Position numbers and translations under genes: made by a program. Source: a virus. From it: a stretch of 30,053 bases of DNA. Shown here piece by piece: positions 1,685 to 23,293 of this stretch (positions are counted from its first letter, which is position 1; every line of letters begins with the position of its first letter). Below the pieces are notes generated by a model, which did no database searches, was not told the DNA's origin, and saw only the letters and a program-made list of their open reading frames with translations. The stretch is from IMG/VR virus record IMGVR_UViG_3300027985_001426, positions 1 through 30,053 of that record; one strand, 5' to 3'.

Positions 1685-1687
1685 GCC

Positions 1688-2323: not shown

Positions 2324-2326
2324 TTT

Positions 2327-4807: not shown

Positions 4808-4817
4808 GTGATAAGGC

Positions 4818-6351: not shown

Positions 6352-7069
6352 TTTTTGGGGTGGCGATGGTTTCAGCTGCATTTCAATTGATCCGGATATA
6401 CCAGGCGTTGAAAAAATTGAATGCCTTAAGCCAAGGTTAAGGCCAAGGCTTTTGTGGTTCGGAGGTAGCAGTGGTGACACTGTTGATAAAAAGTACAATG
6501 CACGAATGGCCACAATTGCAGAAGAACAGCAGGCCATGGCCAATGAATATTATCAATACTGGCAAGATGTTTACCAGCCGTATGAAACAGCACAGGTCCA
6601 GGCTAATTCGTCACTTATAGCCGGAGAAACGAGACTTGCCAAGGCAACAAACCTCGTGAACCTTCTCCTTTTGAGGGGCCAGGCACAGTCCCAACAGGCA
6701 GAATATGACGCTCAAATGGCTATATTACCAGAGCAGACTGATTATCTTGTGCAGGCTATGGGTGACTCAGAAAGGGTTCGCTCCGCATATTATGACGAGG
6801 CTCTTAATGGTGTTGACATAGATGCCAGAGTTAACCGGGCTGCAGCCGATGCAACTCAGGCCTTCATGAACTCCTCTGAACAATTGAGCAGAAATGCAGC
6901 AAGGATGGGTATAAGTCCAAGTTCAGGAGCCTTTGCCGGGTATGCCAACCAAAACAGCTTAGACCAGGCAAAGCTTGTCGCCAACGCAAAAACACAGGCC
7001 AGAACTCAAGCAGAACAAGAAAACTTTGACAGAATGACAACCGCAATGGGCACAACAGTGGCCGTATAG
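6341..7069 (+). CDS. Internal virion (DNA ejection) protein, gp14-like
   Basis: Encodes 242 residues from ATG 6341, which has AAGGAG (6327-6332) eight bases upstream. The frame is open further 5', to 6215, but that part only overlaps the acetyltransferase gene and lacks a ribosome site. After a short N-terminal segment the protein is a long Gln/Ala-rich helical chain. Its C-terminal phrase NAARMGISPSSGAFAGYANQ followed by AKTQARTQAEQENFDRM is typical of podovirus internal virion proteins that are ejected with the DNA and help form the channel across the cell envelope. It is the first of three consecutive ejection-type genes before the giant gene. The function is inferred from this family pattern and from position. 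Confidence 0.65.
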   Translation: MMIDFWGGDGFSCISIDPDIPGVEKIECLKPRLRPRLLWFGGSSGDTVDKKYNARMATIAEEQQAMANEYYQYWQDVYQPYETAQVQANSSLIAGETRLAKATNLVNLLLLRGQAQSQQAEYDAQMAILPEQTDYLVQAMGDSERVRSAYYDEALNGVDIDARVNRAAADATQAFMNSSEQLSRNAARMGISPSSGAFAGYANQNSLDQAKLVANAKTQARTQAEQENFDRMTTAMGTTVAV

Positions 7070-7082
7070 GGAAAGGTGTGGT

Positions 7083-8099
7083 ATGCCTCTTTATCAAGTA
7101 GAAAGTCCTATAAATAAAGCTATGCAAGGGTTAAGCGATGCGTCTAACACCTATGCTTCAATGGACAAAGAAGAATATGTGCAAACAGACCCACTCGCAC
7201 CGGTAAAGCTGGCTGTTGCTGGTGCTGAGATTGGATACCAGGGAGGAAAGACCTATGATTATGTCAAAAGTGTCCTTGGAACCGGTGGGGACAAGATAGG
7301 TACACAAGGTACCGTCACAACAAACCAGACAATAGGCCAGTCAATACAGAGCCCCGCAGTAAACCAGGCACCGATTCAACAGGCGGGCTCTACAACAGGA
7401 ACCCAGGCCGTGACTGGTTCATCTGAGCAGGCTATGCAAACAGTAATACCGGAAGGTTTGTCTGGTAGCACACCCGGGGGGATTGCAACCGAATCCATTG
7501 GGGCTGGTGGTGGTGGTGCCCAAGCAAGTGAAACCATAGGGGCTCAACTCGCAGGACAAGATGGCGGTGCGGTGGCCGGTCAACAAACCGGGCAGGCAGG
7601 AGGGCAAGTTGTTGGGCATGGCTCTGAGCAGATCGTGGGCCAGGCAATGGGGGAACAGGCGTCGGGATCAGTGACCGGCGAAATGGTAGGGCAAACAGCA
7701 GGGCAGGCTGGCGGGCAAGTTGCCGGACAAACAGGTGGTGCCGTTGCTGGGGATGCCATGGGCAGTGCCATGGGTTATGGTGCTGGCGGGTCCGTTGCTG
7801 CTGGTGCCGGGGCTGGTGGGGCTGCCATGGGAGCTGGTGCCGGGGCTGGTGGGGCTGCCATGGGAGCTGGTGCCGGGGCTGGTGGGGCTGCAGCCGGTAT
7901 GGGTACCGCAGTTGGGTATGGTGCCGGTGGAACCATTGTCACTGCCGGCGGCGCCACAGTAGGCACAACTGCAGGCACCGCCGCCGGAGGAGCTGCATCA
8001 GGGGTGGCCACTGGCGCCTCTACCGGTTCGGCTGCCGGGCCAATAGGGGCAGTCGTCGGGGCCGCCGTTGGATTAATAGCCGGATACCTTCTTTCATAA
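7083..8099 (+). CDS. Gly/Ala-rich glycine-zipper protein, probable ejection protein
   Basis: A 338-residue low-complexity protein with AAAGGTG just upstream of its ATG. Residues 1-75 are ordinary. Residues about 80-240 are Gly/Gln/Ala/Thr-rich, with recurring GQ steps such as GQTAGQAGGQVAGQTGG. Residues about 240-270 are a perfect 11-residue tandem repeat rich in Gly and Ala. The C-terminus PIGAVVGAAVGLIAGYLL is a classical glycine zipper that can pack in a membrane. It lies between two ejection-type genes, so it is a good candidate for a membrane-inserting part of the ejection channel. I know no exact homologue. The repeat block could change in length by slipped recombination. Confidence 0.55.
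   Translation: MPLYQVESPINKAMQGLSDASNTYASMDKEEYVQTDPLAPVKLAVAGAEIGYQGGKTYDYVKSVLGTGGDKIGTQGTVTTNQTIGQSIQSPAVNQAPIQQAGSTTGTQAVTGSSEQAMQTVIPEGLSGSTPGGIATESIGAGGGGAQASETIGAQLAGQDGGAVAGQQTGQAGGQVVGHGSEQIVGQAMGEQASGSVTGEMVGQTAGQAGGQVAGQTGGAVAGDAMGSAMGYGAGGSVAAGAGAGGAAMGAGAGAGGAAMGAGAGAGGAAAGMGTAVGYGAGGTIVTAGGATVGTTAGTAAGGAASGVATGASTGSAAGPIGAVVGAAVGLIAGYLLS
7800..7891 (+). repeat. 33-bp perfect tandem repeat (about 2.8 copies)
   Basis: Copies start at 7800, 7833 and 7866. The first two are identical over 33 bases, and the third matches for 26 bases before diverging. Each unit encodes eleven residues of the type AGAGGAAMG inside the glycine-zipper protein. Perfect identity at the DNA level, including third codon positions, implies recent duplication. 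Confidence 0.9.
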
Positions 8100-8111: not shown

Positions 8112-9710
8112 ATGACATACAGACAAAACCAGGCAATGGTATGGGCAGATAGCGTTTCAGATATAACCAAGGGTCTTGGCAACCTCTCCAGTGAAATGAG
8201 AGAGGATGATAAATACCGCCGTGAAAGGCAGTCAAAGGACAATATAAACGCCAATGTCACAGCTATGCAACAGGCCGGTGATAATTACGGTAATGCTCAA
8301 CTTAAAGGGACTGCCACAGATCAAGCAGAAGCAAGGCGTATTTATGGCATGGACCTCCAAAACATACATGCCATTGACATGACCAGGAGAGATAACAGGG
8401 TTAATGCAATGGTAAGCGGTATGTTGTATGGGCTTTCGACACAGGGAGTAGCGTTTGAGCCGAACCTAAAAGGATTGGACACCAGCGAGGCATACGAGGC
8501 CATGAATAAGGCTTATAATATGTTCAGCCAGTCCCAACAAGGGAAAGAGTTAATCTTCAAGAACAGGCTTGCCAGTATCGAGCGCGGATATGCTCAATTG
8601 GAACAATACAACCGATCATTTGACGAGGCAGAAAGCCAGGGTAATACCGTTGCTATGGCGAACATTCTTGAACGTGCGTATATGGACTATTCGTCCCCAC
8701 ATTCAATTAAATGGAACAACCAGACAGGCTCTTTCGATCACCTATATAAGCCAAGGGAAACAGGTGAATGGACACCGGTTGGAAGCGTGTCAATGCAAGA
8801 AGCAAGAGAAAAACTGAAAAGCATGACCTATGAGAAGTATGGTAATGAAAAAATGCTTGCCATGGAGCTTACCAAACGAGAAAACAGCGCCGCGCTCCTT
8901 CCTGTTGGGGCAAAAGACGAAAACGGCCTTAGCGGTATGACTCAAATATTCAAAAAAGACGGGCAAGCTTATAGCATTACACCACAAAGAAACATAGAAA
9001 AGCCAGTGGTTGTTGACTACATCGTAAGAAGCCATAGCGACAACTCTACTCAAGTTTTCCACTCAAGACAGGAATTGGCGGAAGCTGGGTTTATGTACGA
9101 AGACTTGAAACGAGAAAAGGCCCAAAAAGACTTGGTACTTGCAGACCAGAAGATAATATCCGAGCATGCCAGACAAGGCCAGATTGCAGCGAGTACCAGG
9201 GCTTCAAACTCAAGGGCGAACTATTACGACAAGGGAGGTGCAGGGCAAAAGAAAGGCCAAAACATTCTCAATACAAAGCGAGCCAGAGACATGCAAAAAC
9301 AGCTCATAGAGGAGGCGTCAAAGTTTTTTGGAAGCGGTAACGGTGAGCTTTCGATTGATGCAAATGGCAATTTAACGCAGGCCGGTGAAAACACCAGGGA
9401 TGCAGCTATGAAGTTCTTCTATGAAAAACAAGCTGATGCTGCAGCCGGAAATCTTTCCCCACAGGAACGGCAAAAATTCTTTATTGCTCAGTCTCTTGTC
9501 GGAGGGGTGAAACAGTTCTTCGGCGTCCCCGATCTACCAGCAGACCAGCAACCACCAGTCCCGGGCGCAAAAAGGGCAGCCGACGGGAAATGGTATGTTC
9601 AAAGAAATGGGCAGTGGGGTGTATTAGAAAAAGATGATACAATGAAATCATCGCACCTCCCGAATACAAACCTCGGGAGCGGTCCACAGTCAGCAATGCG
9701 CGGATATTAA
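8112..9710 (+). CDS. Putative internal virion protein
   Basis: A 532-residue, mostly helical, charged and Gln-rich protein with AAAGGGA upstream of its ATG. No signal peptide or membrane segment is visible. The N-terminal 120 residues are rich in Asn, Gln and Arg (KDNINANVTAMQQAGDNYG). The middle carries YEKYGNEKMLAMELTKREN, and the C-terminal tail ends in a Pro-rich and Trp-containing segment (GKWYVQRNGQWGVLEKDD) that may be a small separate domain. Size and position, between the glycine-zipper protein and the giant polyvalent gene, match the second large ejection protein of podoviruses. No family is recognised from sequence, so the role is positional inference. Confidence 0.5.
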   Translation: MTYRQNQAMVWADSVSDITKGLGNLSSEMREDDKYRRERQSKDNINANVTAMQQAGDNYGNAQLKGTATDQAEARRIYGMDLQNIHAIDMTRRDNRVNAMVSGMLYGLSTQGVAFEPNLKGLDTSEAYEAMNKAYNMFSQSQQGKELIFKNRLASIERGYAQLEQYNRSFDEAESQGNTVAMANILERAYMDYSSPHSIKWNNQTGSFDHLYKPRETGEWTPVGSVSMQEAREKLKSMTYEKYGNEKMLAMELTKRENSAALLPVGAKDENGLSGMTQIFKKDGQAYSITPQRNIEKPVVVDYIVRSHSDNSTQVFHSRQELAEAGFMYEDLKREKAQKDLVLADQKIISEHARQGQIAASTRASNSRANYYDKGGAGQKKGQNILNTKRARDMQKQLIEEASKFFGSGNGELSIDANGNLTQAGENTRDAAMKFFYEKQADAAAGNLSPQERQKFFIAQSLVGGVKQFFGVPDLPADQQPPVPGAKRAADGKWYVQRNGQWGVLEKDDTMKSSHLPNTNLGSGPQSAMRGY

Positions 9711-9733: not shown

Positions 9734-12700
9734 ATGACATATACATTTAAGCCGGTTGATTACGATCCCTTTGCAGAAAATATTGTCCAAGATCAACAAA
9801 CTGAACCGGAGCAGGTTGAAAATCCTGGTTATGTTTTTAAGCCTGTTGATTATGACCCATTCGCCCAGCAAGAACAAACCGAACATGAGCAACCAAAGGG
9901 TTATGTCGGTGCCCTTGTTGGTGGAGTTGGTGACGCTTTCCAGAACGTAAGAAGCGCCTTTAATACTTATGTCACTGCAGACGATGAAGCGATCCGTAGG
10001 ACCGCAGAGCATATGCAGACCAACCCCAATGCCACCCCCGAAATGGTAGGCTTTCAACAGGACTTGGCGAGCTACGGCAAACCAGACGGAACATGGGAAG
10101 CTATCAAGAACATTGGCCGGGCAGCCTGGAATAATAAAACCGGTGCTGCCCACACTGTAATATCACAAATCCCAAATTCCGGCGTTGTTATGGGTTCAGC
10201 AGGGGTAGGAGCTGCCGTTGGTGGAGCCTTAACCCTTGGCAGCCCGATAGGTATTTTTGTCGGAGGTTTGGCCGGCATGATGTTTGGAAATACAACCGTT
10301 GAGACTGGTGCCTTCGCAAATCAAAAAGCCATGGAGGATGGGGAATACAGCAGAGGCGATGTTATCAAGGGTGGGGTGGTAAAAGGTGGTGTCATAACCG
10401 CTGTTGACTCATTAACCCTTGGAGCAACTAAGTGGCTTACCGGGTCGGCTGGCCGGGCAGCCATGAAAGCAACCGAGCAGGTATTGGTTAAAAACGGCAT
10501 AAACGTAGCAGACAAAACAGCGGTTCAAATGGCTTTTACTGACGCAAGGATTGTCAGAGAGGCTACAAAGGCCGCTGAAATGGCAGCATCGGCAGCAGAG
10601 AAAAGCACCGGAATGATGGCCGGGAAAGCAGCCTCTTTCGCTCTCGACATGGCAGGGGAAGGTGTTGGAGAGTACGCCGGTTCGTACTTTGCGCCAGGCA
10701 TGAACCCTGACATTCAGGATGCAATCATGGAGTCTTTAATGTCCATGCCTCAGAGCGCCGGCGATGTTGCTATAGGCAAAGCCTTAAACCTCCTTGATAA
10801 AAAGCCAGTCCCGGGCTCTGACCAGGTAACACACGACACAGGTGAAACAGTTTCGCCAGAAGTTCAAAAGCCTTTCTCTTTTGAATCCCATGAGGGTGAC
10901 GATACTTACAAGCGGTGGGAGGAACAGATAAACCGGCAGAAAGAAGTTCAGGCCATGAGAATGGAGCCGGAAGACCCTACCGATACAGCTATCAGGGGGC
11001 TTTATAAAGCCAATGATTACCGTATGGCCGGCATGGAGTCTGTTCCGGATTATTCCATGAAAGGCAACGCCAACCTACTTGCAAAGAACATCAGTGATTA
11101 CAGGAGGTTACAGAGTCAACAGGCAAGCGAGGAGGCTTTAAACGCCAGGCAAGAAAACATGGTAAACAATCCCGATCAGTTGTTTAGGCCAGGGGTTGAA
11201 CCTAACCCATTTGAAAGCCTCAAGCCTGCACAGCCAACCGCTTTAACAGGACAGGCTCTTGAGGACCAGGTGTCAACGGGCCAGGTTAACAGAAACTATG
11301 ACGCCAGGTTGAACGACCGTTTTAACCGCATTGATAACGCCACCTCTCCAAGCGAAGTTGACCAGGTGCTTGCAGAGAACAGCCAAGACCCGGGGAATAA
11401 CCACTTCGGTGACACCATGTTGAGGAACGCAGCACAGCAGCGCATGGATGCACTCTCCCTTAACAGGGTCCAGCAACAAGGATTGACTGGCCAAGAGGCT
11501 TATTATGAGACCAGGCTTGAAGACCGATTTAACCGGGTAGACGCGGCGAACACTCAAGAAGACCTGCAGGCCATCATAGACGAGAATCAGGCAGACCAGG
11601 ACAGGAACGATTACGGATCGGGCATGCTGAACAATGCTGCACAGCAGAGGCTTGACAAAATGTCACTGGATAGCGGAGTCACTGCCGATAAAGCGCCAAT
11701 GCTTAAATTTACCTTTGACGCAATGCCAGAGTCACAGCAAGCCGGGCCTATTCCTTCTGAGCCCGGGCCTGTTGAACCGGTGGATATTGCGGGTCCTGCA
11801 GAACCGGAAAAAGCCCCCCACGAGATCACCCCGGGCAACATAAACCACAACCCCACGGAAGGACAAAAAGAAGCTGGAAACTATTTAAAAGACCGCATTA
11901 AAATTGACGGCAACCGCATTGCACTTGAGAACCATGACGGCTCTGTTCGGTCTGGAACGGACCAGGACGGCAATAAATGGCAGTCAGAAATGCACGGGCA
12001 CTATGGTTACTTTGAACGCACAGAGGGCAGGGATGGTGACCAGGTTGATGTGGTGGTGAAGCCAGGAACCGAAACGAGCCCGAAGGTTTTTGTCGTTGAC
12101 CAGGTGGACCCCAAAACCGGAAAGTTTGACGAGCACAAGGTAATGCTCGGGGCTGAATCTGCCGATGAAGCTAAGGACATGTATCTTGCTAACTACGAGC
12201 CTGGATGGGATGGTTTGGGGGCCATTACAGAAATGAGCCAGGACGAGTTTAAAACCTGGATCGGTGACGGCAAGAGAAAGAAAAAGGCTCTCTCATACGT
12301 TGAGCAGCAGGCACCCAAAAGACTAACCTATGAAGAGTTTAAGGGTCAGTATCGGAAGCAGTTTTACGAAATGAACAAATTCACTCCGGATCAAGTTGGG
12401 ACCCGCATTCATGCCGAAGAGCTTGGTAAGCTTGAGGATGAATACCCGGAGTTCAGCAAGCAGCTTGAAGCGGAACTTGAAAGAGAATATGCCGACGAGC
12501 AGGCGAAAAAGAAAGAGGCCAAACCGGAACCAACTCCGGAAGAGTCGGGGCTTGCAGAGGGTGGCCGGGTAAAATGGAAAAATAAAAAGGGTGAATACGT
12601 TTATGGAACACTGGCCGGAAAGAACCCCAAGGGCTGGTGGCACATAAACAAAGAAGGTGGAGGCTCCTCTATTATGCCTGGATCAAAGCTTGAGCTTGCC

Positions 12701-15700
12701 GGCATAGAAGGTGAAAAGGCACAGGAAACCATCATACCCAAAGAGCCAGCGTCTCCAATTCCGGAGGACACCAGGAGAAAGGCACATGCTGCAGCCATTA
12801 AATCAGGTGGAAGCGTTTTGGTATGGCAGCACCCACAACATGGGCATTGGGTTGTTTCTAACCTAGGGCCCGGGCCTGGTTTGAACACCAAGACCGATAC
12901 TTTTGCTGTCCAAAAAGACGGCAGTGTCTCCTTGTGGCGTGGAAAAGACGAAAAAATAGATGAAGGCAACCAGAAAACTAAGACTTTTGAGGATGCAAAA
13001 AAGTACGACATATACACCACAAAAGTAAACGTCAATGGCAATATTGAGGATCGCTACGCTTTGCGTGGAGATCATCCTCGTGGTTCTGGCGACGAACTTT
13101 TTAGCACCTATGCAGATGCAGATGAATACAGAGCCGAAAAAATAAAACGCGACGAGGCAAACGAAAAAAGCCAGAAAGAGTTTGAGGAAAGAGAGGAGGC
13201 TCGATTAAAAAAAGAAGAAGAAAAAAGAGCTGAATACGAGGATGTTGACGGTTACGCCAACGGCATGAATAACCTGCAAAAAGGACGGGCTTTGAAAACC
13301 CTGAATAAGCAGATCATGTCAAATGGTAAATCCACTACCATTAAAGAATTGATCCGGAAGCTTGTATCTGAGGGCAGAACAATAGGTGAGGTGCAGGGCG
13401 TTCGATCCCTTGAAGACGCCAATGGAATATTTTTGGATGAAAAAGACCTGACAAAAACAGGTATGGATTATGCTGAATTTTTGATTTCAAAGCGAGATCA
13501 AGATAGCCAGAAATTAGCAGAAGACGAAGACGAAGACGAGTTCTCCCCGGACAATTTAATGAAGGAGTGGGGCAAACAGGCCACAGAGAGGAAGGAGCAA
13601 AAGGCGCAAAAGCAAAAAAGCGTCAAGCCATCAGAGCCCAAGCCCGTACCCCAAAAACAACCTGCTGCACCAAAAGAACAAGCCAAGGCAAAAGCCACTG
13701 AGGTTAAAGACCACATAGCCAGCGCAATGGACAAGTTCAAACAGATCAATAAAATACTTGGTGATCGAGGAAGTTTTTCCACGGAAGAAACAGACGAAAA
13801 CATTTATAAGGAGATCAAGGTTCTTCTGCAGGGGGCGCTGGAAGACATTATAGCTGCAGGTAAGGCAGCAAAGGACTTTGTGTCTCTGGCTATGGATGCA
13901 CTTTCAGAAGATGCCACCCCATATTTTGAAAGATTTGTCCGCGATGACATGGTTGACCCGAGACAAAGAAATGATGATATTATAGACACAACTCAGGAGG
14001 GCAAAGGAAATGAAAAAGGACGATCTGAAATTCAAGGCGTGGGTAAGGAAGACGAAGGCGTTCTTCCTGGAGGACGAGTCGGACTCTTGGCCGAGGATGA
14101 ACACACCGAAACAGCAGGAAATGCTGTCGTTCTGGAAACACCAGTGCCCGAAGATGTACGCGGACCTGAAAAGTCAGGGGATACTGGAGGACACGGCATA
14201 CGTTCTGGAATGCAAGATGCACCAGGAATGGTACAAGCAGGTAGCGGCAGGGGTGAACATGTCGGACGCCAGGGCGGAAGCGGAGCAGAATTGGCTGATG
14301 ATGGAGCCGGAAGAACCGGAGATAATGTCAGCTTAGAAAACTATCATATTGCGGACCCTGAATCTATCATAGGCGGAACGCCAAAGGTTCGCTTTCAGAA
14401 AAATCAAAACGCCCTGGAAACATTCTCCAGGGTTTCCAGTGAAGGAAGGAACCCAACCGATGCAGAGCGCGACGCTTTGGCTGCGTATATCGGTTGGGGC
14501 TCCTTTGGCCAGGAGCTCTTTCAGGGGTCATGGGAACGCCCTGTCTATCAAGATGGGTGGAAGAAAGAAAACGACTGGTTGAGGGACCACCTCGGGGAGT
14601 CTGCCTGGAAGTCAGCACAAAGCTCAATCATTAACGCCCACTATACAGACCCTCCAACAGTAATGGCCATGTGGGACATAGCAAAGCGCCTTGGCTTCAA
14701 GGGCGGTAGAGTCCTTGAGCCGTCTATGGGCGTTGGCAATTTCTTTGGCCTCATGCCTAAAACACTCAAAGCTAAAAGCGATCTTACCGGAATAGAACTG
14801 GACGAAACAACCGCAGGAATAGCGAAGATGCTTTACCCTGCAGCAAACATTCAGCAGATGGGATACCAGGAAAGCAAGACCGGTGACGGCTTTTATGATC
14901 TTGTCATTGGGAACTGGCCATTTGCTGCAGATGGGCCGGCAGACAGAAGGTACAATAAATATCGCCTGTCTCTGCATGATTATTTCTTTGTAAAAGGGCT
15001 TGACCAGGTTAGGTATGGTGGCCTTGTTATCGGCATCACATCCTCCGGAACCATGGATAAAATGAGCAAAATGGCTCGCCGGCAGATGGAGCGCCGGGCT
15101 GACCTCGTTGCAGCCTACCGCATGCCTATGGGTGCATTTAAGAAATATGCAGGCACCGCAGTTGTGGCAGATATTATAATCCTCAAAAAAAGAGCAGAGG
15201 GAACAGCGCCACATCATAGCGCTGCTTGGCAGGACACCGCTGTTTTAGGAAAGGCCAGCGACGGCAAAGAGGTTTATGTAAACGAATACTGGACCCACAA
15301 GCCCGAAAACGTTCTTGGGCACATGACCATAGGCCATGGTACCACAAGGGGCCGTGACGGAATGATCGTGGAGCGCAGGCCAGGCTATGAGAAGGTTTTA
15401 AGCGATCTTTATAACCGCCTCCCCAAAGATATAATGACAAAGCGCGGCAACGTTGACCATATCCACTACATTTCAAACAATACCACTGAGCGCCAGAACA
15501 GCGTAACTATAGGCGAAGATGGTGGCCTATACCTTGTAAAAGGTGAGCGCCTTGCCCGCCTTGATGATGTGTTGGCATATAAGGTCAAAAGCGAAAAAAC
15601 CAGCCAGGACAGGGAACAGCAGATCGCGTCCCTGGTTAAGATACGGAACCAATATGGAAAACTCCTGGACATGGAAAGAGACGGAGCGAAGGAAACCGAG

Positions 15701-18700
15701 GGGAACCGGAAACTTTTAAACCAGCTCTACCAGAGCTTTGTAAAGAAACACGGCCCCATTAACGGCTCCTATGCTCTGCAATACTTCTGGAAAATAAAGG
15801 AGCCAATGCACCCGGCTCTTGCTGCCCTTGAATACAATGCCGGAACAAAAGACAAACCTGTCTACAAACCTGCAAAGATATTCACCGAATCAACACTTAG
15901 AAGCAAGCCCAAGATAAAAAATCCGAGCATTGCAGATGCCTTTATCCTCTCTCGGAATGAGGTAGCAAGGACTGTTGATATTGATTTTATCGCTGAAAAG
16001 GCAGGGGTTACACCGGAGGAGGTTAAAAAAGAGCTTATAAGTAAAGACGCCATTTTCGAGACACCGGATGGTAACTTCGAGGTTAAGGACATTTACCTAT
16101 CAGGAAATGTGCGCCAAAAGCTCATAGCCGCAAAAGAGGCTAAAGCCCTTGGCATGAACATGGACCGGAATATAAAAGCCCTTGAAGCCGTAATTCCGGA
16201 GGATATTCCATACTTCAACATCGAAGCCAACCTTGGTGCAACGTGGATACCTGCAGAAACATACAGGCAGTTCATATCCGAAATGGTCAACCTTCCTGAG
16301 AACATGGCCAATGGGATACGCCTCACAGCCTCAACTAATGGATGGATAGTCAAATTTGACAACGCGAGCGACATAGACGGAAGGGTGGAAGCCCGGACTA
16401 TGTGGAGCACTGACCGCGCATCTTTCACGAGGATTATCAAAGCCGCGTTCTCTGGACAAAATATAGTTATCAAATCCATGGACATGGAAGGTAACGAGTT
16501 CACAGATACCGAGGCGTCAACCGCAGCAAATGAAAAGGTAGATGCTTTCCGCGAGGCTCTTAGGGACTGGATATGGAAAGATGTTGAGCGCCGCGTAATG
16601 CTCGAACGCCATTATAATGACATCATGAATGCCTGGGCTAACCCATCTTATGACGGCTCTTTCATGACTTTTGACGGAATGATGCTGCATATAGGCGACA
16701 ATGAATTTAACCTGAGATCACACCAGGTAAACGCTATTTGGAGAGGCGTCGCCAATGGTCGTGGGCTTTACGCCCATGAGGTTGGAACCGGTAAAACTTT
16801 CACTATGGGGGGCGTAGCCGTTGAATCAAGAAGATATGGTATAGCCAGAAAGCCTTTAATCCTTGCTCACAATGCAAACAGCGCGAGCGTAGCAGATGAT
16901 ATTCAGGCGATGTACCCTGGGTCCAAAGTCCTTTACATCGACAATATGAGTCCGGACACCATAGAGCAGAAGCTATACCAAATCGCAAACGATGATTGGG
17001 ACGCTATAGTCCTGCCTCACTCCTTGATGGACAGGTTAACGCTTTCAGAAGAAACGTTGAACCGAATAGCTCAAGACGAGATCATGGCCTTGGAGGAAGA
17101 CGCCATAGCTTCGGCAGCCGAGGAGGGATTCGACATTGAAGGCATGCTTGACGATCCGGAGGAGCTCAGAAAAGTAAGGGGCGCAACGACGGCGAAGGAG
17201 CTGGTTAAGCAGCGCAACAGGATCATTGCAAACATCCAAAAGCAAGTTCAGGCCTCTACCCGGGAAAATGCCATACCGTTTGAAAGGCTTGGCATTGACA
17301 TGTTGATTGTTGACGAGGCCCACGAGTTTAAGAAACCACCACTGTCAACAAAGATGAGGGTGAAAGGTTTGAACACGAACCCGTCAGGGAAAGCCATAGC
17401 TCTTCACTTCTTGGCGTCATATATCAAAGAGGTGAACAGTGGTAGAGGGGTCCACATTTTTACCGGCACACCAATTACAAACACCCTGAACGAAATCTAT
17501 AACCACATGAGGTACATCATGTCCGACGAAATGGAGCGGGCGGATGTATCGGCATGGGATACCTGGTTTAACACCTTCGCGTCAGTTGAGTCTGATCTTG
17601 AGAGAACAGCCACGGGCGAATATGAAATGGTTTCCAGGCTTTCAGAGTTTCACAACGTTTCTGAGCTGAGGCGGTTTGCTGGTCAGTTCATGGATATTGT
17701 CTTTGCGGATGATATGCCAGAATTTGTGCCGAGAAAAACAGAAAGCGGAAAAGACCTTTACTCCGAAAATTTGACCGATGCAGATCGGGAAGAGTTGTTG
17801 AATGGCCGGGTTGATAAGGGCGCCCCCATGGGCAGGCCATATAAAAAGCTTGTCAACGAGGTTGCCCCCATGTCTGACGAGCAAAGGGTTATTCTGCAAA
17901 CGCTGATAGAGCGTGCCGAGTTTTTTAGAAACTCGACCCCCAAAGATCGCAGGGCAATGATGCTTTCCGGCGATCCAAGCAACCCCGTAATCGTTGAAAC
18001 TCATGCGGCCCAAGCAGGGTTTGACCCGCGCCTTTACGACAAGGAGCTGTCAGACCATCCAACCAATAAAATAAACAGGTGCGTTAAAAACGTGCTGAGG
18101 CACTTCAACGAGCACGACAAGGCCTGCCAGGTTATATTTATGGACAATGGATACAATGACACGTCTGTAAGGTCTGCCGGCAGGGACATGGACGGGAACA
18201 AGATCAAGGTCAAGGTTGACGTTTTCAATGCAGCCAAGGACATAACCCAAAAGCTTATTGACGGCGGCATCCCTGAAAACAAAATAGCTGTTGTCAACGG
18301 TCCTGTTTCAAAGAAAAAGCGCAAAGAGATTTCCGACATGGTCAGCTCTGGTGAAATACGGGTGGTTATTGGGCTCACTGACACCCTGGGTACCGGTACC
18401 AACATGCAGGAAAACTTGAGGGCAATGCACCACCTTGACGCACCATGGATGCCCGGGGAACTTGAGCAGAGAAACGGGCGTGGCCATCGCCAGGGGAACC
18501 GGTGGAACACGGTCTTTGAATACCGGTATATCACCGAAGGAATAGACGCGAGGCGCTGGCAGGTCTTGGCTAAAAAGCAAAAGATCATTGTGGATTTTTT
18601 GAAAGCCAAGGACGGTGTCCGCTCTGTTGGCGGCGACGTTGTTGATATGAACACGAGCGATCTTGACGAGATCAATTCTTCTTTTTCTGATGCGGCCGGG

Positions 18701-21700
18701 GATGCCAGGATATTGATCCGTGAAAAGCTGAGAAAGGATATTGATAAGCTTGAGCGTAAAAAGCGGACCCATGGCCAGGGCATAGTCGAGGCAAAAGAGA
18801 AGGCTCGGGAGCTGGAAGAAAAAGAAATACCTGCACTGAAAAGAAAAATTGACAACATGCAGGCCGACTTAGATGCCTACCAGGATGTTGTCGGAGACAA
18901 GTGGGAGATAACCTTAGACGGAAAAGTTTACACAGACCGCAAAGAAGCAAGTGCGGCGCTGGAGAAAATAACCATACGGCAAGAGGGTATGGCCAGGGGC
19001 TCCAAGGAAACAATAGGGCATTATCGTGGTTTTGACATTACGGTCCAGTACGGCATAAACAAGGCATACAGCCTTGAGGCCGAACACCGGTATTTCATCC
19101 AGCCGGCAATAGGAAGCATAGATTATCTGACTAGAAACTTTGCAAAGAACTTGGCTGATGAAAGGGTTAAGCTGCAGGAAAAGGAAAGTTCAGTTGAAAA
19201 GTTTAAGCAGGTAGCCAAGGAGCCTTTTGCCCAAGAGGATGCTTTGCAGGGCAAAAAGGACATGCTCGACCAAGTTGAGCAGGACATGGCCGCAAACCCC
19301 GACGCTCCACCTACCTGGTTATCTCAGGGCGCACCCATAGGGACCATGGTTCGCTATGAAGGCAAAGAGTGGGAGGTGGAGGGCCACAGGAGTGGGGAAC
19401 ACGGGCATTACCTTCTTATCAAGGGCGATGACCGCAAAGAGGTTATTAGCTACCTCGATGCCAGGGACGAGAACAACCTTCCCATATACGAACCACGCCA
19501 AGACAATGCAGAAGGAGGAGAGCCCCAATTCTCAACGACCAAATACACAGGAACAATCCCGGGCGAGATAGTAACCCTTAAGGATATGCAAAAAAGGTTT
19601 GTCGGTCAAAATGTAACCATAGGGGAAGATGGAGCAGTTCAGGTCTTAATGGACAATGGCAAAACCCTACGGATAACATCGGTTGAGCAGGTAGATGATG
19701 AAAACATAAGGGTTGCCATTGAAACCGGAAGGATGGGCAAAAATGGAAAAGTCCTTGGCATGTATAAAAAGAGTGAGATCATCCTCAATAAAAACTTTGC
19801 CACAACCTTTACCCGGGACCATGAGCTTTACCACTTCTTTGTTGATATGGGCATGCTCACACCTCAAGACCGGTTGGCAATTATGGGTGAGTTTAAAAGG
19901 CTCCAAGCTTTTGGTCTTGCCAAATTCAAGGCCAATAAATCAAGGGAGGAGAACGAGGCCAATACATTCGCTCAAATGCTTCATGACCGTGAGAAATACC
20001 GGGAAACAAAGCTTGGGCGTATCATGCAAAAGGTTACAGACTTCATTGACGCCATAATGCACATTGGCCGCACCTCTGCGAGAAAGATTGCTATAGAGGT
20101 TGAGACAGGGAAGTTTTATCGCCGAAAGATAGGTGTAAACAAATTTGCACCGAATTCAAAGTTCAGCGCTTTGGAAGGCACAACCATAAATAACACGCAA
20201 GAAATAAAAAATGTGTTCAAAGAAGCTGCGTCTGAAGGTGACAAGGTTTATCTTCGTTTTACATCAAACCCTGATCTGGATATGGAAAGACAAACATCTA
20301 TACATATGACAGACGCAACGTCTTTGGAAGAGGCAATGGAAATGACTGGCCTTGATGAAGATGAGCTTGTAGAAATGGAAGACGAAACGTGGGGACAAAT
20401 AATAGATGGCCTTGCCGCTTTTGAGGTTGAAGGGATTGAAGATGTTGAAAATATTTTATCAGATTCATCTAATGCAAACGCTGAAATAATTCCTGAAAAC
20501 AAAAGATTTGCATACTTATTTACAGGTGAAGACGCAGATGGTGACGTTCCGGACGGAACGTCTTTTTATCCTAAAAAATATATTCGTGTAAAAACAGATA
20601 AAGACATTAACACATCAATATCTAAAATAGATACAAAATTTCAAACCTCTGACGACATTGTGAAGGAGCTTTTCCATACCCGGGGAACGTTTGTGGATGG
20701 CATAAAGAAGGCCATAGACGACAATAAAACAGGGCTCGCGGATAAGGTCATAGCCGAGACGGTTGACAACCTTCACTTTATCAAGAAACGCCTGGGGGAT
20801 GAAGCATATAAGATGCACCGGGCTCTTACCGGTATAAAGTCGGCAACATTCTCAATGTTCCTTGAGTTCGGAAAAATGCAGTGGTCAGGCAATGGAATAG
20901 AGGTTATCAATCCGGATGAAAGGGCCGGGTTCCTTAAATTCCTGCGTGACATTGGCGACGACTGGCAGGACTTGTTTTACTGGATAGCTGCCAAGCGATC
21001 CGAGGAGCTTGAAAAGGATATTCAACCAAATGGCCAGGGCCGTGAGAACTGGATAACTCCAGAGCGCAGGGAACGCTTGTTGGAGAAGACGGGGGAATAC
21101 TCAGCCAAGGGAGAGTCGTGGGCCAGCCTTAATGAAAAATTTCAGGAGTATAATAAAAACGTTTTGGATGTAATGCAGGAAGCCGGGCTTATCAACAGGG
21201 AGTCCAGGGCCTTGTGGGAGTCTAATGTGTACCTTCCTTTTTACCGCGTACTGGAAGACAGCGTAACCCGGGAGGAGTTTGTATCCGGACCAGTACAGGC
21301 CAACCAGCATATCACGTCACAAATACGGAGACTGAAAGGCCGGGCCGAAATGATAGGCGATCCCCTGGAGAACGTCCTTAAAAACTGGATGTATGGGCTC
21401 GATGCTGCAGCGCGGAACAGGGCAAGAGATAAGGCTTTCGACGTTGGAACATCACTTGGCCTGATAAAAGAGGTTCCCAAAAAAGACCTTGTTAATATTA
21501 TAGGGTCACAAACTGTTAAGACATACGCCATTATAAAAGCTGGGGCAAGTAAAGCCAGAGCCATTTTTGATACCATGGACGAAGCCAGGGCAGCTATTGA
21601 TACGCTCACCCAACAAGGAAAGGGTCCATACCGGGTAGAACCCCGCAAAGAGATCAAAGTAAGATTTGGCTCGATGAAGGATTATGGCATCCTGTCTTTC

Positions 21701-23293
21701 CAGAGAGATGGAAAGTCAATTTACTTTAAGACTGATGATGTTGACCTGTACCATGCCCTTTGTGAAGTTGATACCGCGGCATTCAATAACCTGTTTATGA
21801 AGCTCATGGGCGGTGCAAAGCGCATGCTTTCATACAGCGCCACATTCGGGCCGGCTTTCCGGTTGAGGAACTTCATAAGGGATTCTGTTCACACAGCCGT
21901 AACCAACCCCAATTACCGGTTATTCATAGACTCTGCCATTGGGTTTGTTTCATCCATGAAAGAGGATGCCGACTATGTCCAATTCATGGCGTCCGGCTTC
22001 GGTTTTGGTTCTTCTTATGTAAATTCAGATAACCCGGATGTTGGATCAAAATACATTAAGCACATACTTAAAACAGAAGGTAAGAGCGCCCTTGATAGAA
22101 TACTGACAACCCCTCTCAAGGTCCTCCATGTTTGGGAAAAAATAGGAACTGCGTCAGAGAACGCGGCCCGGGTAGGATTATACAAAAGGCTCAAGGCCAA
22201 AGGGGAAACATCTTTTGATGCTGCATTTGAAGGGCGTGACCTGATGGACTTTTCCATGATAGGACATTCTCAAAGTGTTCAGACCCTTGCCAGGATTATA
22301 CCTTTCCTTAATGCCAGGTCACAGGGTTTGTATAAGCTTGGCCGGGCTGCCTTTGACAACCCAAAATCGTTCTTGCTCAGATCGGCGCTTATGACAACAG
22401 CATCAATTTTGTTGTGGTCTCTGTATAAGGATGATGACAGGTATAAGGAACTTGAGGATTGGGATAAGTGGTCATATTACCATTTTTGGCTTGGTGACGA
22501 TCATTACAGGCTGCCTAAGCCCTTCGAGATAGGCGCTCTATTTTCTTCACTGCCCGAGTCTGTGGCCAATGTTGCCAACGGAACAGAGGAAGGTAAATAT
22601 GTTTGGGATTGGTTTAAGTTTACCGCCAATTCTGTGTTCAATGTTGATATTCCCCAACTATTCAAACCCATTTTGGAGGAGCGGTTTAATTATGACACAT
22701 TCCGGGAGCGCCCAATAGTTCCGGAGAGCATGCAGTCTCTTAGGCCGTCTGAGCAGTTCAACCCATGGACAAGCGATACCATGAGGGCTTTAGGCCAGGC
22801 CACCAACATTTCCCCGTTAAAGCTTGAGCATTACGTCAATGGGTACCTATCTACCATAGGGAGCATGGGTCTGTTTATAACAGACATTATGACCCGTAAC
22901 GCAATGGGATACCCATCCAGAATGCAGGGGAGCCCCAATCCTTTCCTTCTGCATATCCGTGACCAACACGAGCCAAGGTCGTCAAAAAACGTGACAAGGT
23001 TTTATGATCTGTATGAGCAGATAGACTCTGCAACAAGGACATTGAAAAACTATATCAAGCTGGGTGAAACGGAAAAGGCAAAGGATTTTTTTGCCGAGAA
23101 CAAAGACATCATGCAGTTAAAGCCATACGCCAATAAAATACGGTCACAGCTTGCAGAACTTAACAGGCTTCAGCAGCAGGTTATGATGGATAAAAACCTG
23201 AGCCCAGCGGAAAAGAGGGCAAGGGTTGATACCATAAGCGAAAGGAAAAGGGCTATCACAAGGCAGCTTTTTTCTCAGCTTAAGAGCCATTAA
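9734..23293 (+). CDS. Giant polyvalent protein: InPase-like, N12 methylase-helicase, HExxH peptidase, LPD38
   Basis: A single uninterrupted frame of 4519 residues; AGGA lies nine bases upstream of the ATG. Order of parts: a duplicated FKPVDYDPFA motif (residues 3-44); a hydrophobic glycine-zipper region (150-185); a duplicated 57-residue module (521-646); an inorganic-pyrophosphatase-like domain (about 705-845); a Lys/Glu-rich coil (about 1133-1166); a Gly-rich linker (1426-1534) overprinted by another gene; an N12-class adenine methylase (about 1545-1790) and helicase (about 2330-2960); a coiled coil (about 2990-3060); an HELYH peptidase-like domain (about 3280-3460); an AT-rich insert (about 3478-3636); and an LPD38/PLxRFG-type C-terminal region (about 3770-4350). 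DarB of phage P1, which combines methylase and helicase, is carried in the capsid and protects phage DNA from type I restriction. Position after three ejection genes suggests this protein is also packaged and injected. Whether it is cleaved afterwards is unknown. Confidence 0.85.
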   Translation: MTYTFKPVDYDPFAENIVQDQQTEPEQVENPGYVFKPVDYDPFAQQEQTEHEQPKGYVGALVGGVGDAFQNVRSAFNTYVTADDEAIRRTAEHMQTNPNATPEMVGFQQDLASYGKPDGTWEAIKNIGRAAWNNKTGAAHTVISQIPNSGVVMGSAGVGAAVGGALTLGSPIGIFVGGLAGMMFGNTTVETGAFANQKAMEDGEYSRGDVIKGGVVKGGVITAVDSLTLGATKWLTGSAGRAAMKATEQVLVKNGINVADKTAVQMAFTDARIVREATKAAEMAASAAEKSTGMMAGKAASFALDMAGEGVGEYAGSYFAPGMNPDIQDAIMESLMSMPQSAGDVAIGKALNLLDKKPVPGSDQVTHDTGETVSPEVQKPFSFESHEGDDTYKRWEEQINRQKEVQAMRMEPEDPTDTAIRGLYKANDYRMAGMESVPDYSMKGNANLLAKNISDYRRLQSQQASEEALNARQENMVNNPDQLFRPGVEPNPFESLKPAQPTALTGQALEDQVSTGQVNRNYDARLNDRFNRIDNATSPSEVDQVLAENSQDPGNNHFGDTMLRNAAQQRMDALSLNRVQQQGLTGQEAYYETRLEDRFNRVDAANTQEDLQAIIDENQADQDRNDYGSGMLNNAAQQRLDKMSLDSGVTADKAPMLKFTFDAMPESQQAGPIPSEPGPVEPVDIAGPAEPEKAPHEITPGNINHNPTEGQKEAGNYLKDRIKIDGNRIALENHDGSVRSGTDQDGNKWQSEMHGHYGYFERTEGRDGDQVDVVVKPGTETSPKVFVVDQVDPKTGKFDEHKVMLGAESADEAKDMYLANYEPGWDGLGAITEMSQDEFKTWIGDGKRKKKALSYVEQQAPKRLTYEEFKGQYRKQFYEMNKFTPDQVGTRIHAEELGKLEDEYPEFSKQLEAELEREYADEQAKKKEAKPEPTPEESGLAEGGRVKWKNKKGEYVYGTLAGKNPKGWWHINKEGGGSSIMPGSKLELAGIEGEKAQETIIPKEPASPIPEDTRRKAHAAAIKSGGSVLVWQHPQHGHWVVSNLGPGPGLNTKTDTFAVQKDGSVSLWRGKDEKIDEGNQKTKTFEDAKKYDIYTTKVNVNGNIEDRYALRGDHPRGSGDELFSTYADADEYRAEKIKRDEANEKSQKEFEEREEARLKKEEEKRAEYEDVDGYANGMNNLQKGRALKTLNKQIMSNGKSTTIKELIRKLVSEGRTIGEVQGVRSLEDANGIFLDEKDLTKTGMDYAEFLISKRDQDSQKLAEDEDEDEFSPDNLMKEWGKQATERKEQKAQKQKSVKPSEPKPVPQKQPAAPKEQAKAKATEVKDHIASAMDKFKQINKILGDRGSFSTEETDENIYKEIKVLLQGALEDIIAAGKAAKDFVSLAMDALSEDATPYFERFVRDDMVDPRQRNDDIIDTTQEGKGNEKGRSEIQGVGKEDEGVLPGGRVGLLAEDEHTETAGNAVVLETPVPEDVRGPEKSGDTGGHGIRSGMQDAPGMVQAGSGRGEHVGRQGGSGAELADDGAGRTGDNVSLENYHIADPESIIGGTPKVRFQKNQNALETFSRVSSEGRNPTDAERDALAAYIGWGSFGQELFQGSWERPVYQDGWKKENDWLRDHLGESAWKSAQSSIINAHYTDPPTVMAMWDIAKRLGFKGGRVLEPSMGVGNFFGLMPKTLKAKSDLTGIELDETTAGIAKMLYPAANIQQMGYQESKTGDGFYDLVIGNWPFAADGPADRRYNKYRLSLHDYFFVKGLDQVRYGGLVIGITSSGTMDKMSKMARRQMERRADLVAAYRMPMGAFKKYAGTAVVADIIILKKRAEGTAPHHSAAWQDTAVLGKASDGKEVYVNEYWTHKPENVLGHMTIGHGTTRGRDGMIVERRPGYEKVLSDLYNRLPKDIMTKRGNVDHIHYISNNTTERQNSVTIGEDGGLYLVKGERLARLDDVLAYKVKSEKTSQDREQQIASLVKIRNQYGKLLDMERDGAKETEGNRKLLNQLYQSFVKKHGPINGSYALQYFWKIKEPMHPALAALEYNAGTKDKPVYKPAKIFTESTLRSKPKIKNPSIADAFILSRNEVARTVDIDFIAEKAGVTPEEVKKELISKDAIFETPDGNFEVKDIYLSGNVRQKLIAAKEAKALGMNMDRNIKALEAVIPEDIPYFNIEANLGATWIPAETYRQFISEMVNLPENMANGIRLTASTNGWIVKFDNASDIDGRVEARTMWSTDRASFTRIIKAAFSGQNIVIKSMDMEGNEFTDTEASTAANEKVDAFREALRDWIWKDVERRVMLERHYNDIMNAWANPSYDGSFMTFDGMMLHIGDNEFNLRSHQVNAIWRGVANGRGLYAHEVGTGKTFTMGGVAVESRRYGIARKPLILAHNANSASVADDIQAMYPGSKVLYIDNMSPDTIEQKLYQIANDDWDAIVLPHSLMDRLTLSEETLNRIAQDEIMALEEDAIASAAEEGFDIEGMLDDPEELRKVRGATTAKELVKQRNRIIANIQKQVQASTRENAIPFERLGIDMLIVDEAHEFKKPPLSTKMRVKGLNTNPSGKAIALHFLASYIKEVNSGRGVHIFTGTPITNTLNEIYNHMRYIMSDEMERADVSAWDTWFNTFASVESDLERTATGEYEMVSRLSEFHNVSELRRFAGQFMDIVFADDMPEFVPRKTESGKDLYSENLTDADREELLNGRVDKGAPMGRPYKKLVNEVAPMSDEQRVILQTLIERAEFFRNSTPKDRRAMMLSGDPSNPVIVETHAAQAGFDPRLYDKELSDHPTNKINRCVKNVLRHFNEHDKACQVIFMDNGYNDTSVRSAGRDMDGNKIKVKVDVFNAAKDITQKLIDGGIPENKIAVVNGPVSKKKRKEISDMVSSGEIRVVIGLTDTLGTGTNMQENLRAMHHLDAPWMPGELEQRNGRGHRQGNRWNTVFEYRYITEGIDARRWQVLAKKQKIIVDFLKAKDGVRSVGGDVVDMNTSDLDEINSSFSDAAGDARILIREKLRKDIDKLERKKRTHGQGIVEAKEKARELEEKEIPALKRKIDNMQADLDAYQDVVGDKWEITLDGKVYTDRKEASAALEKITIRQEGMARGSKETIGHYRGFDITVQYGINKAYSLEAEHRYFIQPAIGSIDYLTRNFAKNLADERVKLQEKESSVEKFKQVAKEPFAQEDALQGKKDMLDQVEQDMAANPDAPPTWLSQGAPIGTMVRYEGKEWEVEGHRSGEHGHYLLIKGDDRKEVISYLDARDENNLPIYEPRQDNAEGGEPQFSTTKYTGTIPGEIVTLKDMQKRFVGQNVTIGEDGAVQVLMDNGKTLRITSVEQVDDENIRVAIETGRMGKNGKVLGMYKKSEIILNKNFATTFTRDHELYHFFVDMGMLTPQDRLAIMGEFKRLQAFGLAKFKANKSREENEANTFAQMLHDREKYRETKLGRIMQKVTDFIDAIMHIGRTSARKIAIEVETGKFYRRKIGVNKFAPNSKFSALEGTTINNTQEIKNVFKEAASEGDKVYLRFTSNPDLDMERQTSIHMTDATSLEEAMEMTGLDEDELVEMEDETWGQIIDGLAAFEVEGIEDVENILSDSSNANAEIIPENKRFAYLFTGEDADGDVPDGTSFYPKKYIRVKTDKDINTSISKIDTKFQTSDDIVKELFHTRGTFVDGIKKAIDDNKTGLADKVIAETVDNLHFIKKRLGDEAYKMHRALTGIKSATFSMFLEFGKMQWSGNGIEVINPDERAGFLKFLRDIGDDWQDLFYWIAAKRSEELEKDIQPNGQGRENWITPERRERLLEKTGEYSAKGESWASLNEKFQEYNKNVLDVMQEAGLINRESRALWESNVYLPFYRVLEDSVTREEFVSGPVQANQHITSQIRRLKGRAEMIGDPLENVLKNWMYGLDAAARNRARDKAFDVGTSLGLIKEVPKKDLVNIIGSQTVKTYAIIKAGASKARAIFDTMDEARAAIDTLTQQGKGPYRVEPRKEIKVRFGSMKDYGILSFQRDGKSIYFKTDDVDLYHALCEVDTAAFNNLFMKLMGGAKRMLSYSATFGPAFRLRNFIRDSVHTAVTNPNYRLFIDSAIGFVSSMKEDADYVQFMASGFGFGSSYVNSDNPDVGSKYIKHILKTEGKSALDRILTTPLKVLHVWEKIGTASENAARVGLYKRLKAKGETSFDAAFEGRDLMDFSMIGHSQSVQTLARIIPFLNARSQGLYKLGRAAFDNPKSFLLRSALMTTASILLWSLYKDDDRYKELEDWDKWSYYHFWLGDDHYRLPKPFEIGALFSSLPESVANVANGTEEGKYVWDWFKFTANSVFNVDIPQLFKPILEERFNYDTFRERPIVPESMQSLRPSEQFNPWTSDTMRALGQATNISPLKLEHYVNGYLSTIGSMGLFITDIMTRNAMGYPSRMQGSPNPFLLHIRDQHEPRSSKNVTRFYDLYEQIDSATRTLKNYIKLGETEKAKDFFAENKDIMQLKPYANKIRSQLAELNRLQQQVMMDKNLSPAEKRARVDTISERKRAITRQLFSQLKSH
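9740..9865 (+). repeat. Duplicated 12-residue N-terminal motif of the giant protein
   Basis: The pattern Y-x-F-K-P-V-D-Y-D-P-F-A occurs at residues 3-14 (9740-9775) and again at residues 33-44 (9830-9865), exactly 30 residues apart. The DNA of the two copies differs at several third positions, so the amino-acid motif has been kept while the codons drifted. Such conservation suggests a functional short motif, for example a packaging or docking signal. That role is inference. Confidence 0.8.
11294..11670 (+). repeat. Tandem duplicated module inside the giant protein
   Basis: Residues 521-577 and 590-646 are two copies of one module, 69 residues apart. Both begin with an aromatic/acidic step and RLxDRFNRxD (RLNDRFNRIDNA, RLEDRFNRVDAA) and end with N-A-A-Q-Q-R-x-D. 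The DNA has diverged, so the duplication is old. Function is unknown; a helical docking repeat is possible. Confidence 0.75.
11850..12270 (+). other. Inorganic-pyrophosphatase-like domain of the giant protein
   Basis: Residues about 705-845. The run HYGYFERTEGRDGDQVDVVV resembles the acidic metal-binding core of type I pyrophosphatases (D-G-D-x-x-D-V). It continues through FVVDQVDPKTGKFDEHKVML to YEPGWDGLGAITEMSQDEF. This matches the InPase domain known from phage and mobile-element polyvalent proteins (PF18823 as I recall). The acidic residues are present, so metal binding is plausible. Its job in these proteins is not established to my knowledge. Confidence 0.7.
13995..14000 (+). promoter_or_regulatory. 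Internal Shine-Dalgarno site AGGAGG
   Basis: A perfect AGGAGG lies nine bases before the ATG at 14010, inside the giant gene but serving a different frame. It is as good as the best ribosome sites in the window and decides the call of the overlapping gene. Confidence 0.7.
14010..14336 (+). CDS. Overlapping gene inside the giant gene, 108-residue hypothetical protein
   Basis: An ATG with a perfect AGGAGG nine bases upstream opens a 108-codon frame, shifted +1 relative to the giant frame and ending at TAG 14334-14336. The product is a well-mixed helical sequence with six Trp, for example LKFKAWVRKTKAFFLEDESD, MLSFWKHQCPKMYADLKSQG and ARAEAEQNWLMMEPEEPE. It looks like a normal globular protein. 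In the same bases the giant frame yields a Gly-rich, featureless linker (its residues 1426-1534) between domains, which is what overprinting would leave. Most codons of the small frame end in G or C, unlike its neighbours. I recall similar short phage proteins ending in a WLMLEPE-type motif, but cannot verify this here. Function is unknown. It could be an independent gene trapped when two flanking genes fused. Confidence 0.7.
   Translation: MKKDDLKFKAWVRKTKAFFLEDESDSWPRMNTPKQQEMLSFWKHQCPKMYADLKSQGILEDTAYVLECKMHQEWYKQVAAGVNMSDARAEAEQNWLMMEPEEPEIMSA
14400..18650 (+). other. N12-class adenine methylase plus helicase domains (DarB-like)
   Basis: Residues about 1555-2970. Motif I of the methylase is EPSMGVG (E1662-G1668). 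The catalytic motif IV reads N-W-P-F (1727-1730), a variant of N-P-P-F/Y that keeps Asn, Pro and Phe. A YLSGNVRQKL phrase between the halves is a hallmark of N12-class methylase-helicase fusions. The helicase has Walker A GTGKT (2351-2355), DEAH (2527-2530), TGTP (2577-2580) and motif VI Q-R-N-G-R-G-H-R-Q-G (2912-2921). All key residues of an SF2/SNF2-type ATPase are present. The likely substrate is double-stranded DNA. Confidence 0.85.
19575..20110 (+). other. HExxH zinc metallopeptidase-like domain of the giant protein
   Basis: Residues about 3281-3460. H-E-L-Y-H at 3363-3367 fits HExxH, and a Glu at 3408 within ENEANTFAQML could be the third zinc ligand, about 40 residues later. The spacing and the E-A-x-x-F-A phrase resemble ImmA/IrrE-type peptidases, which cleave repressors or regulators. 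Zinc binding is likely from the motif; the target is unknown. Possible roles are self-processing of the giant protein or cleavage of a host factor. Confidence 0.6.
20543..20567 (+). terminator. Terminator-like hairpin inside the giant gene
   Basis: GACGTTCC (20543-20550) pairs perfectly with GGAACGTC (20555-20562) around the loop GGAC, and five T residues follow at once (20563-20567). By structure this is a rho-independent terminator, but it lies deep inside a coding frame, in an AT-rich insert. It may lower transcription of the last quarter of the giant gene and everything downstream, or be a relic of the insert's origin. Confidence 0.45.

Follow-up and report, generated by a model that had tools for sequence, protein, structure and literature searches.

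How is a protein of 4519 residues packed into a phage particle? The question is raised by the virus record IMGVR_UViG_3300027985_001426, which we analysed over its whole length of 30,053 bases (hereafter the window). One frame on the + strand (9734-23293) runs open from ATG to stop with 0 internal stops. A first-pass annotation of this DNA had described the frame as one unbroken DarB-like multi-enzyme protein downstream of ejection-type genes, and this description was confirmed: no frame break was found, the frame matched phrog_10089 ('DarB-like antirestriction', a 4647-position profile, best stretch residues 1493-3349), and the gene order was like that of phage JC1. As a candidate answer to how this giant is packed we describe a pair of elements, namely a short peptide at its N-terminus (the tag) and a small module close to the C-terminal end of the product of the gene directly upstream. 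Judged from the sequences, tag and module co-occur class-specifically across many phages on unrelated protein bodies, and together they look like a docking system, hitherto undescribed, by which phage particles are loaded with proteins.

The tag of the window, FKPVDYDPF, occurs in two copies that are identical as protein and differ in synonymous codons; no further copy was found in the window. Relatives were sampled from IMG/VR and genome contigs as the best 80 of 279, 80 of 154 (the genome-contig loci, fetched with our alignment A1) and 80 of 561. N-terminal self-repeats were scored by comparing the first 80 residues with 199 shuffles at p ≤ 0.01. Among DarB relatives 17 of 74 N-terminal clusters had such a repeat, compared with 10/444 internal tiles of the same proteins and 8/491 N-termini of other open reading frames (ORFs) in their loci. 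The idea of a repeat arose from inspecting relatives; the data unseen at that time were the genome-contig half of the DarB set (5/32 against 7/192 tiles, p 0.017), an independent set of loci with an InPase domain (17/30 against 0/180 and 6/136 in the controls), and the later pattern scans. The inspection suggested that doubled short N-terminal motifs are common among the relatives, the motif differing between lineages. The motif of the window was met again in the InPase set, in L166 and L175 and, in L229, on another gene. More classes are possibly represented by the doubled N-terminal motifs of L126, L134, L066, L074, L018 and L007, each with upstream C-termini of their own. Seven InPase giants (L181, L182, L191, L199, L210, L214, L217) carried longer N-terminal repeats of about 20-27 residues; several such repeats may not be tags but small folded units.

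A scan of the viral contigs of IMG/VR for PVDYDPFA gave 46 stretches, where a rough estimate predicts about 2 by chance. The motif lay within the first 60 residues in 36 of the 46 (28 with at least two copies), within the last 30 in seven, and internally in three. Duplicate phages are present, uncollapsed, in the tag sets; counts of families are given separately below. The tagged proteins, which we call cargo, include ART-PolyVal, LPD23, His-phosphatase and lysozyme-like proteins. Tags stood at both ends of the protein in L268 and L285, and at the C-terminus of separate, lysozyme-like genes right after the module carrier in L253 and L276.

In most PVDYDPF loci the gene directly upstream of the tagged one ended with a module of the pattern A..A-DG-x-W/H/Y-Y-V...G-K-Y/W..V. 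A profile of this PVD module, made from 17 training loci with the window excluded, matched 24 of 31 held-out loci, among them the window and the isolated cyanophage Pam5, and a search of whole records regained the module in four of the seven loci that the profile had missed. The window carries both halves of the pair, two terminal tags and the C-terminal module on the upstream gene. Overall the module was present in 45 of 48 tagged records, on the gene adjoining the tagged one; of the other three, the records of L252 and L265 begin inside the tagged gene, and that of L269 truly is without it. A later training set was compiled without L282, which had entered the first alignment by a false pattern match; the L282 record (G038, 34.5-38.8 kb) itself holds three module carriers in series, with the tag, or a variant of it, at the start of two or more of the genes that follow.

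The pairing was also seen from the side of the module. Among 243 DarB/InPase loci the PVD module occurred in three, exactly the three with a terminal PVDYDPF-type tag (Fisher p 4e-7). When the module alone was searched blindly against seven genomes or records of core relatives, one match was obtained, in the bacterial genome bin of L095, and the gene after this module carrier begins with two PVDYDPF-type tags. In Pam5 the module is on gp12 and two tags are on gp13. The isolated cyanophage Pam1 has a module of another class, NPF (see below), on gp14, annotated as an injectosome translocase, and its gp16 begins with FFDQFD. Both phages are described in PMC9382816, the excerpted text of which does not mention such motifs. 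Some module carriers were P22-type portals, as in L258 (Pfam E 1e-139) and L285 (9e-93), and the carrier of L264 was a portal too; in L258 the portal match stops at residue 628 of 728, ahead of the C-terminal module. For the module of the window and 32 relatives, structure prediction gave three short beta strands (a beta meander), with a predicted local distance difference test score (pLDDT) of 85-89 in the core.

Other tags were accompanied by other modules. Five loci of the DarB set with NPY/NPF tags had a common upstream C-terminal module (A..L+.NP..A..FD..YG.GAA...LG), three with FDDLIP/DFASIVP tags a different one, and those with KPWE tags yet another. In the scan for NPFDQFD, of which 80 loci out of at least 120 stretches were taken, the tag was N-terminal in 79 of 80 and present in at least two copies in 41. 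The scan for MFDDLIP, covering 61 ORFs, gave 36 N-terminal tandem tags, 16 N-terminal single, six C-terminal, two internal and one open. The profile of the NPF module (five earlier training sequences) matched 67/80 NPF loci, 0/48 PVD loci and 0/67 FDD loci; the PVD profile matched 0/80 NPF and 0/67 FDD loci; and the FDD profile (three training sequences) matched 32/67 FDD loci, 0/48 PVD and 0/80 NPF loci. Matches outside training in the DarB/InPase set were L042, whose protein starts with DFTDLIP, and an unexplained minus-strand ORF in L076 for FDD, and L030, without a tag, for NPF. The module ended at most 25 residues from the C-terminus in 42/44 PVD, 70/73 NPF and 37/37 FDD carriers, and the next or next-but-one gene of the carrier was terminally tagged in 43/44 (PVD) and 68/73 (NPF), compared with three PVD and 12 NPF terminal tags among the 12,998 ORFs of the DarB/InPase set. 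The KPWE module pattern matched only the three KPWE-tagged phages (L003, L014, L046) and a second copy of one of them. A scan for LKPWEEY gave eight stretches, one being the L046 contig again and the other seven unsupportive (six ORFs looked unrelated, L450 had no ORF); the KPWE class therefore rests on these three phages. At least three classes (PVDYDPF, NPFDQFD and FDDLIP), and with KPWE probably four, can be seen in the sequences.

After removal of the module, the carriers fell into 28 (PVD), 28 (NPF) and 18 (FDD) families, mutually unalignable at E 1e-4; after removal of the tag, the cargo likewise fell into 20, 17 and 17 families at the same threshold. One NPF carrier family was paired with six cargo families. 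Between tandem tag copies, third codon positions differed at 75/154 (PVD), 72/228 (NPF) and 96/210 (FDD); the copies were chosen by amino-acid pattern, so that only this third-position divergence, a measure of age, is unbiased. The doubling is therefore old and has been retained.

The giant itself is probably carried in the virion, as judged from its homologue in JC1 and from the order of the genes. This order (capsid, ..., head closure, acetyltransferase position, ejection genes, giant) matches that of Bcep22-like phages, with weak sequence similarity: similarity to JC1 was detectable for three of the 18 small genes tested, and among the three genes just upstream of the giant only that at 6215-7069 showed tblastn similarity, weak (E 0.002), to proteins of POI1126 and LASTA at the equivalent place. 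The first-pass annotation had named absence from virions as the result that would speak against it, and for the homologue the outcome was the opposite: purified JC1 virions yielded 51 unique peptides of gp69, at 15.6% coverage, in a table that is silent on the full-length chain, and gp64, gp67 and gp68 of JC1 are likewise virion-associated there (PMC9144972). Production and use of the giant solely inside the infected cell would leave this shared order with four virion proteins unaccounted for, and we regard it as scarcely credible.

With moderate confidence we favour the reading that the DarB-like polyvalent protein is carried in the virion and recruited to the portal/ejection assembly by tag and module. 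The giant would ride in the virion of a Bcep22-like podovirus and act in the new host during DNA entry, where its methylase-helicase would act on the incoming DNA, with the pyrophosphatase as a further activity; self-cleavage is possible, and self-processing by the MPTase domain has been proposed for polyvalent proteins (PMC5512222). The two FKPVDYDPF tags would bind the module on the upstream ejection-type protein, a contact that, while the head is being assembled, would tether the giant to the portal/ejection assembly and that would order its exit; two tags would give avidity. Direct binding, the role in packaging and exit, the stoichiometry and any self-cutting are here what we infer. More generally, it seems rather likely that tailed phages use a modular docking code, in which short lineage-specific peptides, often doubled and placed at the ends of proteins bound for ejection, are read by matching small C-terminal modules on adjoining portal or ejection proteins, and in which swapping a tag or a module would re-address the cargo.

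Several results weigh against this docking reading. No significant repeat was found in 57 of the 74 N-terminal clusters of DarB relatives, and the core relatives L007, L065 and L095 (67, 73 and 64% best-segment identity) have other N-termini. L269, terminase-like and with a complete upstream gene, is without the module anywhere in its 47-kb record. Of 56 upstream genes in the FDD class, no more than 31 had a module that the profile could find (23/35 for tandem, 8/15 for single and 0/6 for C-terminal tags). In phage N4, packaging of vRNAP requires a C-terminal region (PMC5512222). Finally, the first 60 residues of P1 DarB are without such a tandem tag; P1 DarB was therefore rejected as a bearer of the same tag, and not every DarB protein has the tag.

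The carrier stop and the start of the tagged gene lay within about 20 bases in most loci, so that both could be inherited as one short piece. Tag and module might accordingly be remnants of a gene boundary, left by fission or at a recombination junction and co-inherited without any binding beside an ordinary DarB-like virion protein. This we consider unlikely, as the pair recurs on the unalignable bodies described above (28 carrier and 20 cargo families for PVD, 28 and 17 for NPF), as the tags at the C-terminus (L253, L276) or at both ends (L268, L285) are hundreds of bases from the module, and as the PVD tandem copies are old yet kept. Binding could instead act during infection, where it would order the ejected proteins as they form a trans-envelope channel, and not in head loading (compare T7 gp15/gp16); carriers are often of ejection type, the cargo is sometimes lysozyme-like, and T7 gp16 stabilises the C-termini of gp15 after ejection (PMC8954989). 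Portals such as those of L258, L264 and L285, however, remain in the capsid, so that in those phages the contact should precede ejection, and we find the channel explanation rather unlikely. A short conserved peptide repeated near termini, in a protein that also has an HExxH motif, may further suggest a cleavage site at which a virion protease trims the cargo, but this would leave the class-matched C-terminal module on the neighbour unexplained and is very improbable.

Short targeting sequences are not without precedent. The N-terminal 30 residues of P1 DarB suffice for capsid targeting (PMC9024508); the likeness to the tag is that a short N-terminal stretch directs a DarB protein to the capsid, there via a different sequence. 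The 2017 description of polyvalent proteins by Iyer et al. (PMC5512222) has InPase, the methylase-SNF2 pair, MPTase and LPD38 as phage polyvalent domains, a set to which the giant corresponds, with its MPTase putative; unlike here, the excerpted text of that paper does not speak of a tag at the termini or of a module on the neighbour. The giant itself is polyvalent in that a single chain, encoded next to virion genes, combines several unrelated enzymatic domains with LPDs.

In modular synthases, docking domains at the C-terminus of one subunit meet the N-terminus of the next in matched classes. The proteins and the setting are different, and the comparison with tag and module is an analogy only. 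PVDYDPF, NPFDQF, FDDLIP, PNPFDQ and three module strings were not found in the open-access literature; figure sequences and subscription papers were outside this search, and the novelty is therefore provisional.

The closest annotated methylase-helicase core is that of gp31 (4947 residues) of Pseudomonas phage vB_PaeM_USP_18, with 46.6% identity over residues 1476-3256. It also has a tandem N-terminal tag, SDQKPWESF x2 in its case, with an upstream module of its own (GYRFKGG..NWEKI), and unlike the giant of the window it has ART-PolyVal and LPD23 in place of InPase and LPD38. JC1 gp69, representing the DarB-like proteins of Lessievirus, resembles the giant in length (4515 residues), in its place in the same order after the head closure gene, in its core (27.8% over 1452-3185) and in LPD38 near the C-terminus; it differs by an N-terminal lytic transglycosylase, an LPD3 and the lack of InPase, and its first 120 residues are without a PVDYDPF tag. 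Membership of the window in the genus Lessievirus, which would call for a close sequence relationship to Bcep22/JC1, was rejected, protein identity being only 23-31%.

Features of the window discussed in the text, with the evidence for each
Feature	Position	Strand	Evidence
Internal virion / head closure protein (phrog_511)	2869..4614	+	E 1.6e-101; 159 phage records
Ejection-type gene at the place of JC1 gp64, true start probably inside the frame	6215..7069	+	weak tblastn to POI1126, LASTA
Gly/Ala-rich ejection-type gene, 338 residues, at the place of JC1 gp67	7083..8099	+	position only
Module carrier, 532 residues, at the place of JC1 gp68	8112..9710	+	position; weak phrog_12358
Putative receptor module with PGAKRAADGKWYV, upstream protein residues 476-506	9537..9629	+	profile E 6.8e-10
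DarB-like polyvalent protein, 4519 residues	9734..23293	+	single open frame; phrog_10089 1652 bits
Tag copy 1, FKPVDYDPF, residues 5-13	9746..9772	+	pair p 0.005 vs shuffles
Tag copy 2, FKPVDYDPF, residues 35-43	9836..9862	+	nine residues identical to copy 1
Gly-rich hydrophobic stretch, residues 149-185	10178..10288	+	sole hydrophobic peak over the cut-off used
InPase domain PF18823, residues 710-843	11861..12262	+	Pfam E 1.4e-50
Adenine DNA methylase core (motif I 1658, NWPF 1727)	14705..15088	+	phrog_3820 and motif alignment
SNF2/ResIII-type helicase, residues 2325-2922	16706..18499	+	Pfam and motif alignment
HELYH and downstream EENEAN, zincin-like motif	19820..19963	+	kept in 12/12 sequences
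LPD38 PF18857, residues 4234-4386	22433..22891	+	Pfam E 4.8e-34

The pyrophosphatase-like, methylase, helicase and LPD38 domains named by the first-pass annotation were all recovered with Pfam and PHROGs. An adenine methylase was found fused to an SNF2-type helicase with intact motifs, as in DarB-like proteins: phrog_3820 (DNA methyltransferase) matched residues 1641-1785 (E 2.3e-8), with motif I at 1658-1672 and NxPF at 1727, and Pfam placed ResIII at 2325-2535 and Helicase_C at 2845-2921, with Walker A at 2349-2355, DEAH at 2527 and motif VI at 2912-2922. Most residues of these motifs were invariant when the giant was aligned with its relatives from four annotated phages; methylase motif IV (14912-14923) reads NWPF, not NPPF, only in the window and USP_18 among the five. 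Several acidic residues of the InPase domain were invariant in 4/4 sequences. The linker before it contains two tandem repeats of about 53 residues (11297-11455, YDARLNDRFNR..., and 11504-11662, YETRLEDRFNR...). The HExxH peptidase-like domain of the same annotation stood in part: the motif (residues 3363-3367) and the downstream glutamate were conserved in 12/12 aligned sequences and phrog_87 ('metallo-protease') matched the region weakly (E 0.009), but an AlphaFold model of the region (mean pLDDT 55) gave no fold match at E ≤ 0.001 in PDB or BFVD. The motif suggests a zincin fold, which with a model that is moderate at best and no solved match at this threshold is unproven.

We concluded from sequence comparison that the giant, a polyvalent protein of DarB type within a Bcep22-like podovirus module, adds a new member to a kind already known. 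The first-pass annotation had also called a chain of this length unusual, and here it did not hold, whereas its DarB-like protein in an ejection context, probably virion-carried, did. Among 110 members complete at both ends, drawn from IMG/VR, genome contigs and annotated phages with the window itself included, 63 had at least 4519 residues (median 4630, range 1828-7099; lengths counted from the first start codon are upper estimates). Besides JC1 and USP_18, the annotated relatives in POI1126 (4841 residues) and LASTA (4433 residues) are of similar size; with these and the 4647-position profile, length was rejected as a novelty.

The outer modules, as far as the alignments tell, are exchanged among relatives and the core is retained. 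In ten relatives, several of them with incomplete loci, the core was present throughout at about 48-75% identity, InPase in L007 and L011, and the peptidase stretch in L065 and L095. As single-sequence queries, the C-terminal and peptidase stretches gave no matches in viral contigs and the core of the window none in genome contigs. In the Streptococcus phage record MN270259.1 two SNF2 genes shared the DarB-like match and the features included a retron-type reverse transcriptase, so that an intron may have been inserted there.

Around the giant, the products of 7083-8099 and 8112-9710 had no informative Pfam match. The ORF at 5812-6351, at the position of the acetyltransferase gene in JC1, LASTA and Pam1, had no notable one. 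Downstream, 23772-25499 encodes a Gly-rich domain and, after it, many GIGTxxxxxxGIGSxxPKYSI-type repeats. The lysis region includes, at 26285-26878, a lytic transglycosylase (SLT, E 1.1e-13) whose N-terminus is hydrophobic.

How phage heads select the proteins that they carry and eject is largely an open question, and the known targeting sequences are single cases, P1 DarB and the internal proteins of T4 as cited in PMC9024508. Isolated phages such as Pam5 and Pam1 permit direct tests of the docking reading. If it is true, a tag readable in the sequence together with an adjoining module would point out candidates for ejected proteins in phage genomes, small ones without annotation among them, and the exchange of tags and modules would be how unrelated effectors become packaged.
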